Part shown: in pieces, positions 17,613 to 41,937 of the stretch | Layout: every line of letters starts with the position of its first letter | How positions within the stretch are numbered: the stretch's first letter is position 1 | Origin: Anoxynatronum buryatiense | GTDB lineage: Bacteria > Bacillota > Clostridia > Peptostreptococcales > Tindalliaceae | NCBI RefSeq assembly: GCF_900182905.1 | Contig: NZ_FXUF01000003.1 | Location: 310,001 to 374,000, forward strand | DNA: 64,000 nt | Direction: 5' to 3' | The notes under the pieces: generated by a model | Databases searched by the model: none | What the model was told of the DNA's origin: nothing | Seen by the model: the letters and a program-made list of their open reading frames with translations, nothing else | Position numbers and translations under genes: made by a program

Positions 17613-17815
17613 AAAAAACCCTTGAAAGGGTTTAATTTCAAAGCGACACCCGCCATGCCGTATGTCGATCGTTTTGGACCTGCTCTCGCAGGTGGGTGCC
17701 CTGCCAATGATTTTACAAGTCCCAAAGGGCTTTTGCTCCACCATCAGACGCCAGGCTCCCAATGTAATAGTGTTGGCTCAAAACTAAATCGAATACACGC
17801 ACACAGCAGGCTGTC
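17613..17815 (-). ncRNA. ssrS: 6S RNA (RNA polymerase regulator)
   Basis: The 248-nt gap between aspS and the rseC-like gene holds a structured RNA on the minus strand. A TATAAT -10 lies at 17827-17822 and transcription should start near 17815. The body contains the 6S central-bubble flank TTTTGAGCCAACA...TTGGGAGCC and the distal GGTGGAGCA. Closing-arm elements GCCTGC near the 5' end and GCAGG near the 3' end pair. It ends with an AACCC...GGGTT hairpin and T6 at about 17632-17613. Position next to aspS is the same as Bacillus bsrA. It would inhibit the housekeeping polymerase in stationary phase. Length about 200 nt is normal; exact ends are estimates. Confidence 0.85.
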
Positions 17816-34377: not shown

Positions 34378-34869
34378 TTACACACTGAACAATTGCTTGA
34401 AATGACCGGTATGTGCATGGCATACAGCTATCGCAAGGGCATCTGCGGCATCATCAGGTCTTGGAATTTCCTTGAGGTTTAAGAGGGTTTTTGTCATGTG
34501 TTGTACCTGTTTCTTCTCAGCACGTCCGTAACCTGCAATCCCTTGCTTGACCTGTAACGGTGTATACTCATAAACTGGTAAGCTTGCTGCAGCTGCAGTA
34601 ACCACAACTACGCCTCGTGCCTGTCCCACCAAGAGTGCACTTTTCGCATTTGTATTAAAAAAAAGCTCTTCGACTGCTACTGCCTCAGGTTTATATTGTT
34701 TGATAAGTGTTTGAATTCCCTGATGAATTTGCAGCAATCGATCCGGTAAGGGCTGTTTGCTTTCTGTGCGAATGACACCATACTGTATTACCTGGAAATG
34801 ATTTTGTTCAAAATGCACCAGTCCAAAGCCGGTAATAGCTAATCCGGGATCAATCCCCATGATGATCAT
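34378..34869 (-). CDS. ruvC: Holliday junction resolvase RuvC
   Basis: A 163-residue RNase H-fold endonuclease that cuts Holliday junctions. The catalytic acidic residues occur in GIDPGLA (Asp near 7), [10 protein letters not shown], and [10 protein letters not shown] near the C-terminus. The ATG overlaps the stop of the Fur-family gene (ATGA), so translation is coupled to that gene. The ruvC-ruvA-ruvB order is standard; a Fur-type gene as the leader is not. Confidence 0.96.
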
Positions 34870-35315
34870 TTTTTTCCCTCTTCCTCATTCTGACGGCACT
34901 CACTGCAATAGCCGTAAATTTCAAAGCGATGTTCCACCGGAAGAAAATTTGTGTGCTGCTTTACAAAGCGGTTAATTTCTTCAAAGGGACATACGTCTAC
35001 CACTTGCATACGGTTGCATTGAAGACAGATGAGATGATGGTGATGATGATCTGTTACCAGTTCATAGCGAGCAAGCCCGTCGTTCAAAGAGATCTGGCGA
35101 ATAATCCCTGCTTCATCGAGTGTTTCCAGATTGCGGTAAATGGTTGAAGGGTTCATATTTTGGTCGGTCAACTGTAGTGCCTGATGAATTTGGGCAGCTG
35201 TCAATAAATGCTGTTCAGGAGATAGAAATAATCGAAGCAATTGTTCTCGCTGTCGTGTCACTTTAATGCATTTCTTTTTTAATTGATTTTTGAGATCTTC
35301 CCATGTCATGTTCAT
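34866..35315 (-). CDS. Fur-family metalloregulator (Fur/PerR/Zur type)
   Basis: A 149-residue repressor. An N-terminal winged helix ([11 protein letters not shown], then [16 protein letters not shown]) is followed by a dimerisation domain with a run of five histidines (90-94) and two CxxC zinc sites (Cys97/Cys100 and Cys137/Cys140). Which metal or peroxide it senses cannot be told. The longest frame runs on through the tRNA-Sec gene; the ATG at 35315, 8 nt after GGGGAG, is the real start. Its 4-nt overlap with ruvC ties it to the ruv operon. Confidence 0.9.
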
Positions 35316-35357
35316 CTTTCTAACTCCCCAGAATGAATTGACTGCCGTCTTGAATAC

Positions 35358-35388
35358 AAAAATAAATTGAGAGCCGGAGCTCTCAATT
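35358..35388 (-). terminator. Terminator after tRNA-Sec
   Basis: Minus strand: a 10-bp stem AATTGAGAGC/GCTCTCAATT with a TCCG tetraloop, followed by TATTTTTG. It starts 12 nt after the encoded CCA, so tRNA-Sec is a single-gene transcript or the end of selAB. Confidence 0.85.
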
Positions 35389-35399
35389 CGGTGTTGTTT

Positions 35400-35496
35400 T
35401 GGCGGGAGTACGTGGGAATCGAACCCACCCAAGAGGCTACTAACCCCTCGTACTGGTTTTGAAGACCAGAGGATACACCAGCACCCATCTACTCCC
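35400..35496 (-). tRNA. selC: tRNA-Sec (anticodon UCA), CCA encoded
   Basis: The minus strand forms a long tRNA: 5' arm GGGAGTA, a 3' arm TACTCCC followed by G and a genomic CCA (35402-35400), T-loop GGTTCGATTCC and an extended variable arm. The anticodon TCA is at 35462-35460 within CTTCAAA. The extra-long acceptor/T stack and variable arm are those of selenocysteine tRNA. It lies between selB and the Fur-family gene with its own promoter and terminator. Confidence 0.97.
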
Positions 35497-35531
35497 TGAT
35501 TACCCTTTACCATGAAAGTGGCAACGGAGGT

Positions 35532-35610: not shown

Positions 35611-37515
35611 TCAGAGTTTTCGATTCAATATACGGCTGTCTCCATTGCGCTTCGTCAGTTTTTCCTGATCAAAATATTCCAGCAAAGCAACTGCAAATTT
35701 CCTGCTTGTGCCTAGAAGATCCCGGAAATCAGCTGGCGCGATGTCTGAATGATTTTCAAAATGCTTCAGGAGCATATCTTTAGCTGCATTAATTGAATTT
35801 TGATGAAAAACCATTTCCTGATTGATGCGAATTAAGGGTTGTCCCAGCATTAACTCGATCACTTGGCGCACTTCTTTTTCTTTAACTTTGATGATACCTG
35901 CAATTTCTTCAAGCCGTGGTGGTGCAAAAGGCTTTTCAAGATAAAGCGATTCAATCTGATTCATTATTTTCTGCTGGATCGGATTGATCTTAATTTTGAA
36001 ATCCGCTAATGCAGCAAGTTTACCATCTGCTTTTATGATATCTTCAGTTTCTAGTTGTTCCAGCCAGCGATCAACTATTTTTGAGCGGATATCACCAAAT
36101 ACCCTGCTTTTCAGTTCTTCTTTTGGCATGCCTCTTCTCAGCGGATTATCTTTGTGATATCTCGATAATTTATTGACTATATCCTCAACAATTTGATGAT
36201 AATATTCTTGATGGACATATGCCATTGAACCGATTGAGTAAATACTGCCTTCCTCTTCCAGCTGTTGCAGAAGTGCTATCAGCTGATCAGAAGAATAGCC
36301 GGTGTGTTTACACAGAGCACCTGTATCAGGAAGTTCTTTGCTAAAACGAAGTATTTGCTGCTCAAGATAGACTTCCGGGCCACCACTTTCTTTCGCCTGA
36401 AGCTCATCGATGACGTCCTGTCGAAGTGCTTTATGTTTTTCCGGGTTCGGGTCAATGACACGAGCACCTCCCAACGTTTGCATGGGGGAATAGAATCGAA
36501 CAATGAGCTTATCTTCTTTTCTGAAAGCTGCCCTTTCTTCTAATCGAAACTGCACCAATGCACTTTCACCTGGTTCAACCTGTTCTTTTTCAAGAATGAC
36601 AACCCGGGCAAGAATTTCTGAAGTGCCATGATATAATCGTATGCGGTCACGTTGTTTTAAAGGTCTGTTGGCATTTTTTAACATCTTTATTCGACAATCA
36701 ACCATCATGGTATATGTCATGGATCCCGGTTGTGCAAGAAAGCTGCCGCGTTTTATCTGATCTTTTTTCAATCCGGACAGGTTAATGGCCACACGCTGGC
36801 CTGCATAGGCTTCTTTAACCGTATTGCCATGAACCTGAATGTTTCTGATTCGAGCAACTGTTTCTTCCGGAAAAATTTCCAGCGTTTCTTCAACCTTTGC
36901 TGTACCTTCCAACAATGTACCTGTCACAACTGTTCCAAAACCAGTTATGGTAAATACACGATCGATGGGGATTCGACAAGGCGCTGTTTGGTCACGGGTT
37001 TCAATCCTATCGTATGCTTCGGTTAGCAACTCCAAAAGGACTGGAATCCCATCACCGGTAATGGAGTCTACGGCTATAATTGGACTGGCTTCCAAAAATG
37101 TGTCGCTTGTTGCCTGTCTTATCTCTTCTTTAATAAGTTCGAGCCAGTCAGTCTCAACCAGCGAAGATTTTGTAATGACAATGACCCCTTGTTTCATATC
37201 AAGCAATGACAAAATATCCAGATGTTCTTTTGTCTGCGGCATGACACCTTCATCTGCTGCAACAACCAACATGACTAAATCCATTCCACCGACACCAGCC
37301 AGCATATGGCGAATGAACTTTTCATGCCCCGGCACATCAATAATGCCTGCCCGCCGCTCATCTGGGAGATCAAAATAGGTGAACCCCAACTCGATGGAAA
37401 TACCCCGTTTCTGCTCCTCTTTCAGGCGATCGGTGTTTCTGCCGGTCAATGCATGGATGAGCGTGGTTTTTCCATGATCAATGTGCCCTGCTGTTCCAAT
37501 GATTAGATGTTTCAT
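35611..37515 (-). CDS. selB: Selenocysteine-specific elongation factor SelB
   Basis: A 634-residue GTPase that delivers Sec-tRNA-Sec to UGA codons with a SECIS hairpin. G1 is GHIDHGKTT near residue 10, G3 DVPGHEKF near 60, and G4 is TKSS rather than the common NKxD. Domains 2-3 of the EF-Tu type follow, then four C-terminal winged helices that grip the SECIS RNA, ending near SRKFAVALLEYFD. It starts 4 nt after the selA stop with AGGAGTG. Confidence 0.96.
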   Translation of the reverse strand: MKHLIIGTAGHIDHGKTTLIHALTGRNTDRLKEEQKRGISIELGFTYFDLPDERRAGIIDVPGHEKFIRHMLAGVGGMDLVMLVVAADEGVMPQTKEHLDILSLLDMKQGVIVITKSSLVETDWLELIKEEIRQATSDTFLEASPIIAVDSITGDGIPVLLELLTEAYDRIETRDQTAPCRIPIDRVFTITGFGTVVTGTLLEGTAKVEETLEIFPEETVARIRNIQVHGNTVKEAYAGQRVAINLSGLKKDQIKRGSFLAQPGSMTYTMMVDCRIKMLKNANRPLKQRDRIRLYHGTSEILARVVILEKEQVEPGESALVQFRLEERAAFRKEDKLIVRFYSPMQTLGGARVIDPNPEKHKALRQDVIDELQAKESGGPEVYLEQQILRFSKELPDTGALCKHTGYSSDQLIALLQQLEEEGSIYSIGSMAYVHQEYYHQIVEDIVNKLSRYHKDNPLRRGMPKEELKSRVFGDIRSKIVDRWLEQLETEDIIKADGKLAALADFKIKINPIQQKIMNQIESLYLEKPFAPPRLEEIAGIIKVKEKEVRQVIELMLGQPLIRINQEMVFHQNSINAAKDMLLKHFENHSDIAPADFRDLLGTSRKFAVALLEYFDQEKLTKRNGDSRILNRKL

Positions 37516-37519
37516 AACT

Positions 37520-38947
37520 TCACTCCTGATTCTGCAGAGTTATCCAAGCCAGAAATGCTTGGCAGATATCATTATAGTCCTGCTGGAAAATGGTACGCAA
37601 ATCCAAAAGCAGTGCGTTGTCCTGAATACGACCAACAATTGCAGGGCTTTGACTGCGCAGGAACCGTTCGAGACGGGGTATGTTCTCAAGCGATGAACTG
37701 AAGCGGATGAGACGGCTTTCCATTTGAACAGTTGGATATGAACCACCACCCACCTGAGACGACCCTGGTATAATATCTATTTGAATGCCAGAATCGTCAT
37801 TATTGACAGACTGAAGTTGATCATATAAATCCTTTGCACGTTGCTGCAGATTTTGAACCGATTCAGTCATCATCTTCAAAGCTGGTATATGTTTTTTAGC
37901 TTGTATTGGATCGAGGTACTGTACCAACGTAGCTTCCAAAGCACATAATGTTAGCTTGTCCACTCGAAGGGCTCTTGTTAACGGATGCTTTTCAATAAGC
38001 CTGATCCATTCACGTTTTCCGGCGATGATACCGGCCTGAGCACCTCCCAGCAATTTGTCACCACTAAATGTGACAACATCACTACCTGCTTCAATGGCCT
38101 GCTGTACAGTTGGTTCTGCAGGAAAACCATCGACTTCAAGATCAATCAGAAGTCCGCTGCCCAAATCATTAATTAAAGGCAAATCATGGGAATGTGCCAG
38201 TGAAACCAGCTCCTCCACTGATGCTTCCTGAGTAAATCCCACAATTTTAAAGTTGCTTTGGTGTACTTTCAGCAATGCCCCGGTGTGTTCTGTCACTGCT
38301 TTTTCGTAATCTCGTACATAGGTTTTATTTGTGGCTCCCACTTCAATAAGTGTAGCACCGCTTTGCTCCATTACTTCTGGCACTCGAAAAGAACCACCGA
38401 TCTCCACCAGTTCACCCCTGGATATAATCACTTCTTTACCCTTGGCGATGGCTGAAAGCACCAACAAAACAGCACCAGCGTTATTATTGACAACTAAAAC
38501 GTCTTCGGCACCTGTTAGTCGCAGCAATATTTCTTTCATGTGATCATAACGACTGCCTCGTTTTCCTGTTGTTAAATTCATTTCAAGGTTACTGTACCCT
38601 TGAGCAACGTCCCACAATGCTTCTTTAACATAGTTTCCCAGCGGCGCACGGCCCAGGTTTGTATGAAGAACCACGCCAGTCCCGTTTATGACTCTGCGCA
38701 GCTGTAATGCGGAAATCTGCTGACATCTTTCTTGAACTGACTTGATGATCTGCTGAATACTCAGATTTTGCGGGTGATCTTCGGAGTATTCACCAGTGAG
38801 AATTGCTTCTCTTAGTTCTTGTAAGACTTGACGAACTTCAGCTTTTATAAAATCCTCATTGAAAGTTTGCATGTCATCAATCGTTTTAATCTGATGAAGC
38901 ACATCGTCTGTTTTGGGAATTTTCCGCAACCAAGCCTGACGTTCCAA
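37520..38947 (-). CDS. selA: L-seryl-tRNA(Sec) selenium transferase
   Basis: A 475-residue PLP enzyme that converts Ser-tRNA-Sec to Sec-tRNA-Sec using selenophosphate. Hallmarks are NGTGVVLHTNLGRAPLG, EMNLTTGKRGSRYDH and the PLP lysine in VTFSGDKLLGGAQAG. The open frame extends 52 codons further, but the TTG at 38947 lies 7 nt after GGAGG and gives the usual start (LERQAWLRKIPKTDD). An extended -10 promoter lies 29 nt upstream. Confidence 0.95.
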   Translation of the reverse strand: MERQAWLRKIPKTDDVLHQIKTIDDMQTFNEDFIKAEVRQVLQELREAILTGEYSEDHPQNLSIQQIIKSVQERCQQISALQLRRVINGTGVVLHTNLGRAPLGNYVKEALWDVAQGYSNLEMNLTTGKRGSRYDHMKEILLRLTGAEDVLVVNNNAGAVLLVLSAIAKGKEVIISRGELVEIGGSFRVPEVMEQSGATLIEVGATNKTYVRDYEKAVTEHTGALLKVHQSNFKIVGFTQEASVEELVSLAHSHDLPLINDLGSGLLIDLEVDGFPAEPTVQQAIEAGSDVVTFSGDKLLGGAQAGIIAGKREWIRLIEKHPLTRALRVDKLTLCALEATLVQYLDPIQAKKHIPALKMMTESVQNLQQRAKDLYDQLQSVNNDDSGIQIDIIPGSSQVGGGSYPTVQMESRLIRFSSSLENIPRLERFLRSQSPAIVGRIQDNALLLDLRTIFQQDYNDICQAFLAWITLQNQE

Positions 38948-38975
38948 GGTAACACCTCCATGATCATTCCACTCA

Positions 38976-38984
38976 ATTATAGCA
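38976..38984 (-). promoter_or_regulatory. Extended -10 promoter of selAB
   Basis: Minus strand TGCTATAAT. A TTGTTC lies 20 nt before it, too far for a strong -35. Start near 38969, about 22 nt before the selA TTG. Confidence 0.5.
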
Positions 38985-39175
38985 TAAATCACACTTTGTG
39001 AGAACAATGCATGTCTATTTCGCTGAATGCTATATGTCAAGAACGTTGAAACATTGCTGAATGATTCTGACCATTTCGCGAAATGTGTTTTTTGAGTGAA
39101 CACATCGTTAAAATTGTCTTAAAAGGACATTCATCATCTTTTATTATTTTGAGTATTATGATAATATGAAACTGT

Positions 39176-39189: not shown

Positions 39190-39385
39190 GCTTTGGGTAT
39201 ACATACACAGAGAGGCATTGATCGTTTTATCGGCATGAACTGGATTAGGTGCAGTGCTGTACTTAAACGCATTCATTGTCTTTTGTTATGACCATTTATC
39301 CCAAGCAAATCTTAAGAAAAGGAGGCGAATCACCGAAAGTCTGTGTCGAGATGGTCAACCACTATGTCAAAGGAGGTCGTGTGAT

Positions 39386-40753
39386 TTGATCGGATTTGTA
39401 CAGATGATTGAAAGCATCAACGGCACCATCAATGGTATTGTATGGGGACCCTACATGCTCGTACTTCTGGTAGGAACCGGTGTTTATTATTCTTTTAGAA
39501 CTAATTTCCTGCAGGTAGGTAAGTTTGGCTTTGCCATGAAAGAAACGCTGTTCAAAATTTTTGACAAGACAGAAATTGCTGAAGATGGTGATATTACTCC
39601 TTTCCAGGCACTTTCGACTGCATTGGCCGCTACCATTGGTACCGGTAATATTGCCGGTGTGGCTACTGCTATTGCCATCGGTGGACCAGGAGCGGTATTC
39701 TGGATGTGGGTTTCTGCTTTCTTTGGCATGATGACCAAATTTGCAGAAGTCGTACTGGCCATCAGATATCGTGAAAAGAACGCCGAAGGCAACTGGGTGG
39801 GCGGCCCCATGTACTACATTGTTGACGGTATGGGCGCCAACTGGAAATGGCTCGCCTGGATTTTCTCTCTCTTTGGTGCATTGGCAGCCTTTGGTATTGG
39901 TAACATGGTACAGGCCAACTCAGTGGCTGATGCGCTTAACACCAGCTTTGGCATTCCGCACGTTGTCTCAGGTGTCGTGCTTGCCATTGCCGCCGGAGCC
40001 GTTATTCTGGGTGGTCTGAAACGCATCGCTAAAGTAACTGAAAAAATTGTTCCATTTATGGCAGTTTTTTACATGATTGGCGCTATCGTCATTGTTATTT
40101 TAAACTTGGTTCATATTCCTGAAGCTTTTGCTCTGATTTTCCGCCACGCTTTTACTGCCAAAGCCGGAGTGGGCGGATTTGCAGGAGCGACCGTTATGAT
40201 GGCCATGCGTTTCGGGGTTGCCCGCGGCGTCTTCTCCAATGAAGCTGGTTTGGGTAGTGCTCCAATTGCCCATGCTGCTGCCCGAACAGACCATCCTGTG
40301 CGACAGGGTTTGTGGGGGGTGTTTGAAGTTTTCGCTGATACCATTGTCATTTGTACATTAACCGCCCTAACCATCATTACTTCTGGTGTTTGGAGCAGTG
40401 GTGTTACTGGAGCAGCACTAACAACTGCCGCCTTTAATGAAGGACTCCCTGGTCCCGGTGGTATTATTGTCGCCATCGGTATTTTGTTTTTCGCCTTTTC
40501 AACACTGCTTTCCTGGGCATATTACGGCGAAAAATGCGCAGAGTTTATTCTTGGCTCAGGTTTCAACAAAATCTATCGTATTATCTGGTTGCCACTCATC
40601 GTTTTGGGTTCTGTGGGAAGCCTGACATTGATCTGGGACATCGCCGATACACTGAATGGTCTGATGGCGATCCCCAACTTGGTGGCTCTGCTTGCTTTAA
40701 GTGGTGTCGTTGTTAATCTGACAAAGGAATTCTTTGAAAAGCAAAATCTCTAG
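39386..40753 (+). CDS. Sodium:alanine/glycine symporter (AGCS family)
   Basis: A 455-residue membrane protein with about 11 helices. Family signatures are TALAATIGTGNIAGVATAI, GGPGAVFWMWVSAFFG, MYYIVDGMG and FSNEAGLGSAPIAHAAA. It imports alanine or glycine with Na+. TTG 39386 is 8 nt after GGAGG; the upstream 44 in-frame codons are polar and unlike the family. The next in-frame ATG (39404) is too far from the SD. It is the only plus-strand gene between selA and selD; glycine uptake would suit a Stickland fermenter. Confidence 0.93.
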   Translation: MIGFVQMIESINGTINGIVWGPYMLVLLVGTGVYYSFRTNFLQVGKFGFAMKETLFKIFDKTEIAEDGDITPFQALSTALAATIGTGNIAGVATAIAIGGPGAVFWMWVSAFFGMMTKFAEVVLAIRYREKNAEGNWVGGPMYYIVDGMGANWKWLAWIFSLFGALAAFGIGNMVQANSVADALNTSFGIPHVVSGVVLAIAAGAVILGGLKRIAKVTEKIVPFMAVFYMIGAIVIVILNLVHIPEAFALIFRHAFTAKAGVGGFAGATVMMAMRFGVARGVFSNEAGLGSAPIAHAAARTDHPVRQGLWGVFEVFADTIVICTLTALTIITSGVWSSGVTGAALTTAAFNEGLPGPGGIIVAIGILFFAFSTLLSWAYYGEKCAEFILGSGFNKIYRIIWLPLIVLGSVGSLTLIWDIADTLNGLMAIPNLVALLALSGVVVNLTKEFFEKQNL

Positions 40754-40828: not shown

Positions 40829-41869
40829 CTATTCACTTATTTCAATAGCATATGATGCAGCTTCTCCCACACTTCCAATCTCTGCAAATGCGCATGGTTG
40901 CGTCTTTTCAAGGGATTCCAGTGCTCGCGAAACATCACTTTCGGGTATTGCCAGTAACAATCCGCCAGAAGTTTGTGGATCATAGCACAAGTCCAACAAT
41001 GCTTCATCTACTATCCCCGTTACCTTCACACGCGATCCAAAGTAATCACGATTTCGATACATCCCACCTGGAATTAAACCCATTCGGGCGTTGTCAATCG
41101 CTGCAGAAATAAAAGGGATTGCTGACATTTTAAGCCGGATGGTCACTCCGCTTCCTTCAGCCATTTCTATAGCATGTCCGAAAAGACCAAACCCGGTAAT
41201 ATCGGTGCAAGCATTAATAGCACCACCTCTGGCGGCGTCAAGTGCAGATTTGTTTAACAGTGTCATTACTGATACAGCTTCCTGATAGTCACTTTCGCCT
41301 AACATTTCAGCTTTTATAGCTGTGTTAAGCACGCCGGTTCCTAACGGTTTTGTCAGAATCAGCCGATCGCCTGGTTTAGCATTTTTATTAGTGAGTATAT
41401 GATCAGGGTGAACTGTTCCCGTAACGCAAAGACCATATTTAGGCTCATCATCTTCCACCGAATGTCCCCCCACCAAAGAAGCCCCTGCTTCCAATACTTT
41501 TGCAGCCCCTCCCTGCAGAATTTTTTCCAACACCTGGGTTGAAAGACAATTGGGAAATCCAACGATATTCAAAGCAAGAATCGGTGTTCCCCCCATGGCA
41601 TAGATGTCACTTAGGGAATTGGCAGCAGCAATTTCTCCAAATGTGTAGGGATCGTCCACAACAGGTGTGAAAAAATCGACCGTTTGGATAATCGCCAAAT
41701 CTGGAGTTAATTGGTAGACTGCACCATCATCACTTGTTTCAAGGCCTACAAGTACTCTTGGATCCATTTTTTTGGGCAACTGCCCCAAAACCTGAGTCAG
41801 GACCTCCGGTCCGATTTTAGCTGCTCAGCCGGCGCTCTTTGTCAGTGTTGTCAAACGTACTGGTTCCAT
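40829..41869 (-). CDS. selD: Selenide, water dikinase; a selenoprotein with in-frame UGA
   Basis: A 346-residue enzyme that makes selenophosphate from selenide and ATP. The frame appears to begin at 41788 only because a UGA at 41827-41825 interrupts it. Read as selenocysteine, translation from ATG 41869 (GGAGG 8 nt upstream) gives a KSAGU-AAKIGP active site, with Sec15 and Lys18 matching Cys17 and Lys20 of E. coli SelD. A hairpin just after the UGA suits a bacterial SECIS. Downstream domains include SDIYAMGGTPILALN, GGHSVEDDEPKYG and TDITGFGLFGH. It depends on SelA, SelB and tRNA-Sec encoded nearby, making the machinery self-dependent. Confidence 0.95.
41800..41827 (-). promoter_or_regulatory. 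UGA codon and bacterial SECIS hairpin of selD
   Basis: The UGA (41827-41825) is followed after 12 nt by GGACC-GGA-GGTCC, a 5-bp stem with a GGA apical loop that starts 17 nt from the UGA. A G in the first loop positions and that distance are the usual bSECIS requirements. Weak pairing may extend the stem. Confidence 0.75.
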
Positions 41870-41937
41870 GCATATCACCTCCTTATCATAGTATTATGTC
41901 GTCCTTTTTGCACATTCATCCCGATAATCAAACTCTT

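Follow-up and report, generated by a model that had tools for sequence, protein, structure and literature searches.

Of 223 reference prokaryotic genomes, 26% are reported to have selenophosphate synthetase (SelD). Selenocysteine (Sec) is present in 19% of those SelD genes, always at the identical position, the rest having Cys, and bacterial SECIS elements are recovered in the Sec-coding genes (PMC4561486). Another report gives 38 Sec-containing SelD proteins, with Clostridia among the examples, and describes Sec-to-Cys changes in SelD (PMC1794560). SelD is ranked as the second largest prokaryotic selenoprotein family in a review, where its motif is tabulated as UxxK (PMC13188914), and it is mentioned elsewhere as a selenoprotein in many organisms (PMC12013277).

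The Sec-coded SelD of Anoxynatronum buryatiense, found in a window of 64,000 nucleotides (the whole stretch of DNA that was analysed), is an ordinary member of this common, long-described class. It is like other bacterial Sec-containing SelD proteins in its family (TIGR00476), in the position of Sec and in the hairpin that follows the UGA, with UAAK as its form of the UxxK motif, and no difference of substance was found. The solved SelD chains 3u0o (which we take to be E. coli SelD) and 2yye/2zod (presumably Aquifex aeolicus SelD) share the family and the active-site loop, but have Cys in place of Sec and hence need no SECIS. In eukaryotic SPS2/SEPHS2, in comparison, the SECIS is located in the 3' UTR, and the decoding machinery is different.

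The selD gene and its in-frame UGA

The selD frame has a single interruption between its ATG and its stop, a UGA at codon 15 that lies within a KSAGU motif (Table 1). With UGA read as Sec, the product begins MEPVRLTTLTKSAGUAAKIGP and contains the UxxK motif as U15-A-A-K18. It matches the SelD profile TIGR00476 over profile positions 1–309 of 311, with 396.4 bits (cut-off 125) and an E value of 8e-119. In the alignment to the solved chains 3u0o and 2yye, U15 corresponds to a Cys and K18 to a Lys of those chains, and the residues aligned with these two are presumably catalytic in E. coli SelD. The GGAGG of the Shine-Dalgarno sequence is 8 nt from the ATG. Readthrough of this UGA had been proposed, in a sequence-only reading of the window, to restore a Shine-Dalgarno-led ATG, the KSAGU motif and Lys18; this is confirmed, and its coordinates are correct.

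Table 1. Positions of selD, its decoding signals and other features of the window.
Feature	Position	Strand	Evidence or remarks
selD, selenophosphate synthetase	40829..41869	-	346 residues, Sec at 15; frame, TIGR00476, alignment to solved chains
In-frame UGA, Sec codon 15 of selD	41825..41827	-	UGA in 80/80 relatives; UGA/Cys in 50/50 further loci
Shine-Dalgarno of selD, AAGGAGGTGAT	41874..41884	-	read from sequence
Apical hairpin GGACC-GGA-GGTCC, SECIS-like	41800..41812	-	folding, register comparison, published limits
selA ORF	37520..39103	-	SelA match from residue 59
selB	35611..37515	-	ORF and family match
tRNA-Sec (selC)	35400..35496	-	RNA search of window and genome
AgcS-type amino acid carrier gene	39254..40753	+	
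Fur/PerR-type regulator, mechanical ORF	34866..35513	-	best family match from residue 69
6S RNA	17644..17815	-	95.3 bits

With plain ORF finding, selD is started at TTG 41788 and is 319 residues long, without residues 1–27 and the active-site loop among them. The claim that automatic calling loses the active site in this way holds for plain ORF finding, but not for every record, as the annotated selD of a Terrisporobacter plasmid continues across the UGA and is full-length. This plasmid (NZ_CP154621.1, positions 1–21696, 21.7 kb; L150) carries a Sec-coding selD, selA, selB and tRNA-Sec, as well as proline reductase genes that include a Sec-coding prdB, and has already been described (PMC10564238). 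Of the ten plasmid records listed, one (H9) has no feature under the match, and its gene table is stated to be incomplete.

If the UGA were a true stop, the working product would be the short form from TTG 41788 or near it. This form is the longest plain ORF, and both Pfam domains of SelD fall inside it, but the Sec/Cys loop and Lys18, both kept upstream in relatives, are missing from it. Moreover, a good Shine-Dalgarno sequence precedes the ATG at 41869, while the sole GGAGG upstream of TTG 41788 is 14 nt away, inside the hairpin. A true stop would also have to be kept in all of the best 80 of 212 confirmed relatives from a genome scan, as column 15 is UGA in every one of these 80. We consider this explanation very improbable. 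The internal start at TTG 41788 was rejected, with no well-placed Shine-Dalgarno sequence and the conserved loop lost, and a recent nonsense mutation in selD was likewise rejected, given the UGA in the same 80 relatives. Instead, we are nearly certain that the gene encodes a SelD with Sec at the catalytic position, decoded by way of the hairpin after the UGA.

Column 15 and the Sec machinery

A second sample consists of 297 genomes from the same order as A. buryatiense. A SelD match is found in 213 of them and SelB over the cut-off in 208, and each SelD row among the matches listed has one in-frame TGA. For a closer look at SelD, 22 genomes were picked, mostly low-scoring ones. Column 15 is covered by 50 loci from the second sample, with UGA in 43, Cys in seven (four UGU and three UGC) and nothing else. 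Two of these loci (L126 and L137) mark a single place in genome G233, giving 49 places, and 12 loci are identical to those of the first scan, leaving 37 that are distinct and new. Three others (L131, L134 and L135) were left out, as they do not cover the column. An alignment of relatives had been suggested as a check, with a stop rather than Sec or Cys at this column as the contrary outcome; only UGA or Cys is present in the loci examined.

The selD gene of G233 has an in-frame TAG besides the Sec UGA, with a second piece alongside; either the gene is decaying or the assembly is in error here. The SelD of G272 is split in two pieces. In G093, a genome that is 88% complete, there is a SelB match, and no SelD was found.

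SelA, SelB and tRNA-Sec are all encoded in the window, on the same strand as selD. The true start of selA is probably further in than the ORF start, because the SelA match begins at residue 59. The tRNA-Sec is the only one above the Rfam cut-off in the whole genome. The AgcS-type carrier gene is located between selD and the selA, selB and tRNA-Sec genes. The set looks contiguous in G047, a relative, where the start of selB is some 1.5 kb past selD. The mechanical ORF of the Fur/PerR-type regulator overruns tRNA-Sec; its true start is further in, as the best family match begins at residue 69. A 6S RNA is also found in the window.

Elsewhere in the genome, a selenouridine synthase is encoded, so SelD has two customers, SelA and the selenouridine enzyme. 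UGA appears to be used for Sec outside selD as well, since GrdA has one in-frame UGA and GrdB has one in the segment TSTUGTCTRCG. Two GrdB-family genes (L139 and L140; contig C4:187058-188098 and 192836-193888) lie on opposite strands, separated by about 5 kb. UGA/Sec is present in one of them; the other is a long frame with TAG at its end and no in-frame UGA.

SelB and tRNA-Sec were followed in eight of the 22 genomes, seven of them below the SelB cut-off. Full-length SelB was not found in five of the eight (G050, G008, G133, G278 and G192), and SelD has Cys in all five. In four of these five, the SelB matches are only partial and fall in frames some 400 residues long, taken to be elongation factor Tu, and G278 has none at E 1e-35. 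UGA-coded SelD and tRNA-Sec are both present in the other three, with SelB over the cut-off in G041, full-length but below the cut-off in G033, and a fragment at a contig start in G238. The split is not clean, however. Cys-type SelD also occurs in Sec users, since G176 and G020 have Cys SelD together with SelB. In addition, G008 (L130), with Cys SelD and without full-length SelB, has a tRNA-Sec match of 47.5 bits against a cut-off of 47, which is perhaps a relic or a chance hit.

These observations bear on whether the UGA is read through with a residue other than Sec (Cys, Trp or another), which would leave Cys or no such residue at the site. A Cys form would probably work, given the Cys at column 15 in seven of the 50 further loci. 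On the other hand, the genome encodes SelA, SelB and tRNA-Sec and uses UGA in GrdA and GrdB too, and in the five followed genomes that lack full-length SelB this position is a Cys codon, not UGA. Readthrough of this kind is therefore highly unlikely as the main route, and minor mis-insertion at the UGA besides Sec is possible. The idea that SelD is itself a selenoprotein is supported by the SelD family match, the adjacent Sec machinery and a column that is UGA or Cys only in the loci examined.

The hairpin after the UGA

The apical hairpin after the UGA is formed by GGACC (41812-41808), GGA (41807-41805) and GGTCC (41804-41800). The published limits for bacterial SECIS elements, as given in a review, are a loop of 3–9 nt located 16–37 nt from the UGA, an upper stem of 4–16 bp, a G in the first two loop positions, and a folding energy of -7.5 kcal/mol or lower (PMC13188914). 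The selD hairpin has a loop of 3 nt (GGA) with G first, a stem of 5 bp, and 17 nt between UGA and loop. Its geometry is within these limits, and the earlier suggestion of a hairpin at SECIS distance is borne out. The folding energy is -13.7 kcal/mol for 48 nt and -5.8 kcal/mol for the bare 13-nt hairpin, against the limit of -7.5.

The apical hairpin forms in every stretch that was folded, while the lower stem varies with the length. The UGA is within the basal stem when 61 nt are folded, and is unpaired with 48 nt. With 200 shuffles for each length, 41 fold as well as the real 61 nt (z of -0.64), 40 as well as the 48 nt, and 21 as well as the 13-nt hairpin by itself. As a single sequence, the selD hairpin is not exceptional in stability.

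Selection for structure after the UGA is shown across relatives, however. In a codon-preserving test, the 48 nt from the UGA were compared with synonymous recodings in 74 of the 111 distinct Sec loci, those that share less than 80% nucleotide identity with one another. The mean z is -1.95, and z is negative for 69 of the 74 genes; the other five fold no better than their recodings. Seven control places in the same 74 genes have mean z values between 0.0 and -0.30, and seven Cys genes have a mean z of -0.69. The A. buryatiense selD itself has a z of -1.61, with 6% of the recodings as good. Synonymous codon identity is hardly raised after the UGA (0.429 for codons 16–31, compared to a gene mean of 0.391 and 0.433 for codons 32–60).

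The arms of the hairpin are not in a fixed register among relatives, and a single fixed SECIS register is not supported. Three registers, selected post hoc from the sequences, were compared in 106 distinct Sec regions, with G-U pairs allowed and no chance control. The outer four pairs of the register in the window fit 31 of the 106, and all five pairs fit seven; three of these 31 also fit the third register. The second register fits 39 regions, the third alone 17, and none of the three fits 19. None of the seven Cys regions fits any of the registers.

SelB with Sec-tRNA(Sec) would bind this hairpin just past the UGA and decode the UGA as Sec without termination. The predicted SelD product would then convert selenide and ATP to selenophosphate, to be supplied to SelA for selenocysteine and to the selenouridine enzyme. 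We infer from the gene and its context that the A. buryatiense SelD does receive Sec and is catalytically active.

Dependence of SelD on its own product

In a genome-wide search for SelD, a single match is full and two more are weak (28% identity over residues 22–254, E 3.1e-10, and 32% over residues 71–175, E 8.5e-4). We take the weak two for other proteins of the fold family. A second, Cys-type SelD that would break the circle was not found in this search. The supply of SelD would depend on its own product, as the only clear SelD in the genome is Sec-coded. Of the suggestion that Sec is needed by the cell for its own selenium donor, the circular part holds, and an absolute need for Sec would be a weaker, physiological reading that goes further than the single gene found. 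The cycle could be sustained by inherited enzyme or by Cys inserted at a low level.

The output of selD would set its own translation, because the sole SelD found is Sec-coded. A more elaborate model is that selD is a selenium-responsive bistable switch, where the UGA would terminate early at low selenium and the enzyme would feed forward when selenium is sufficient, and that the SECIS of the family moves between at least three hairpin registers (picked post hoc) as the underlying codons change. We regard this combined model as doubtful.

The finding matters most for annotation, as residues 1–27 of SelD, with the active-site loop among them, are lost from view in plain ORF calling. It adds one more clear case to a class already known, here with the Sec machinery encoded in the window as well. 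That SelD depends on what it makes itself poses a genuine question, and one that is common to every Sec-coded SelD.
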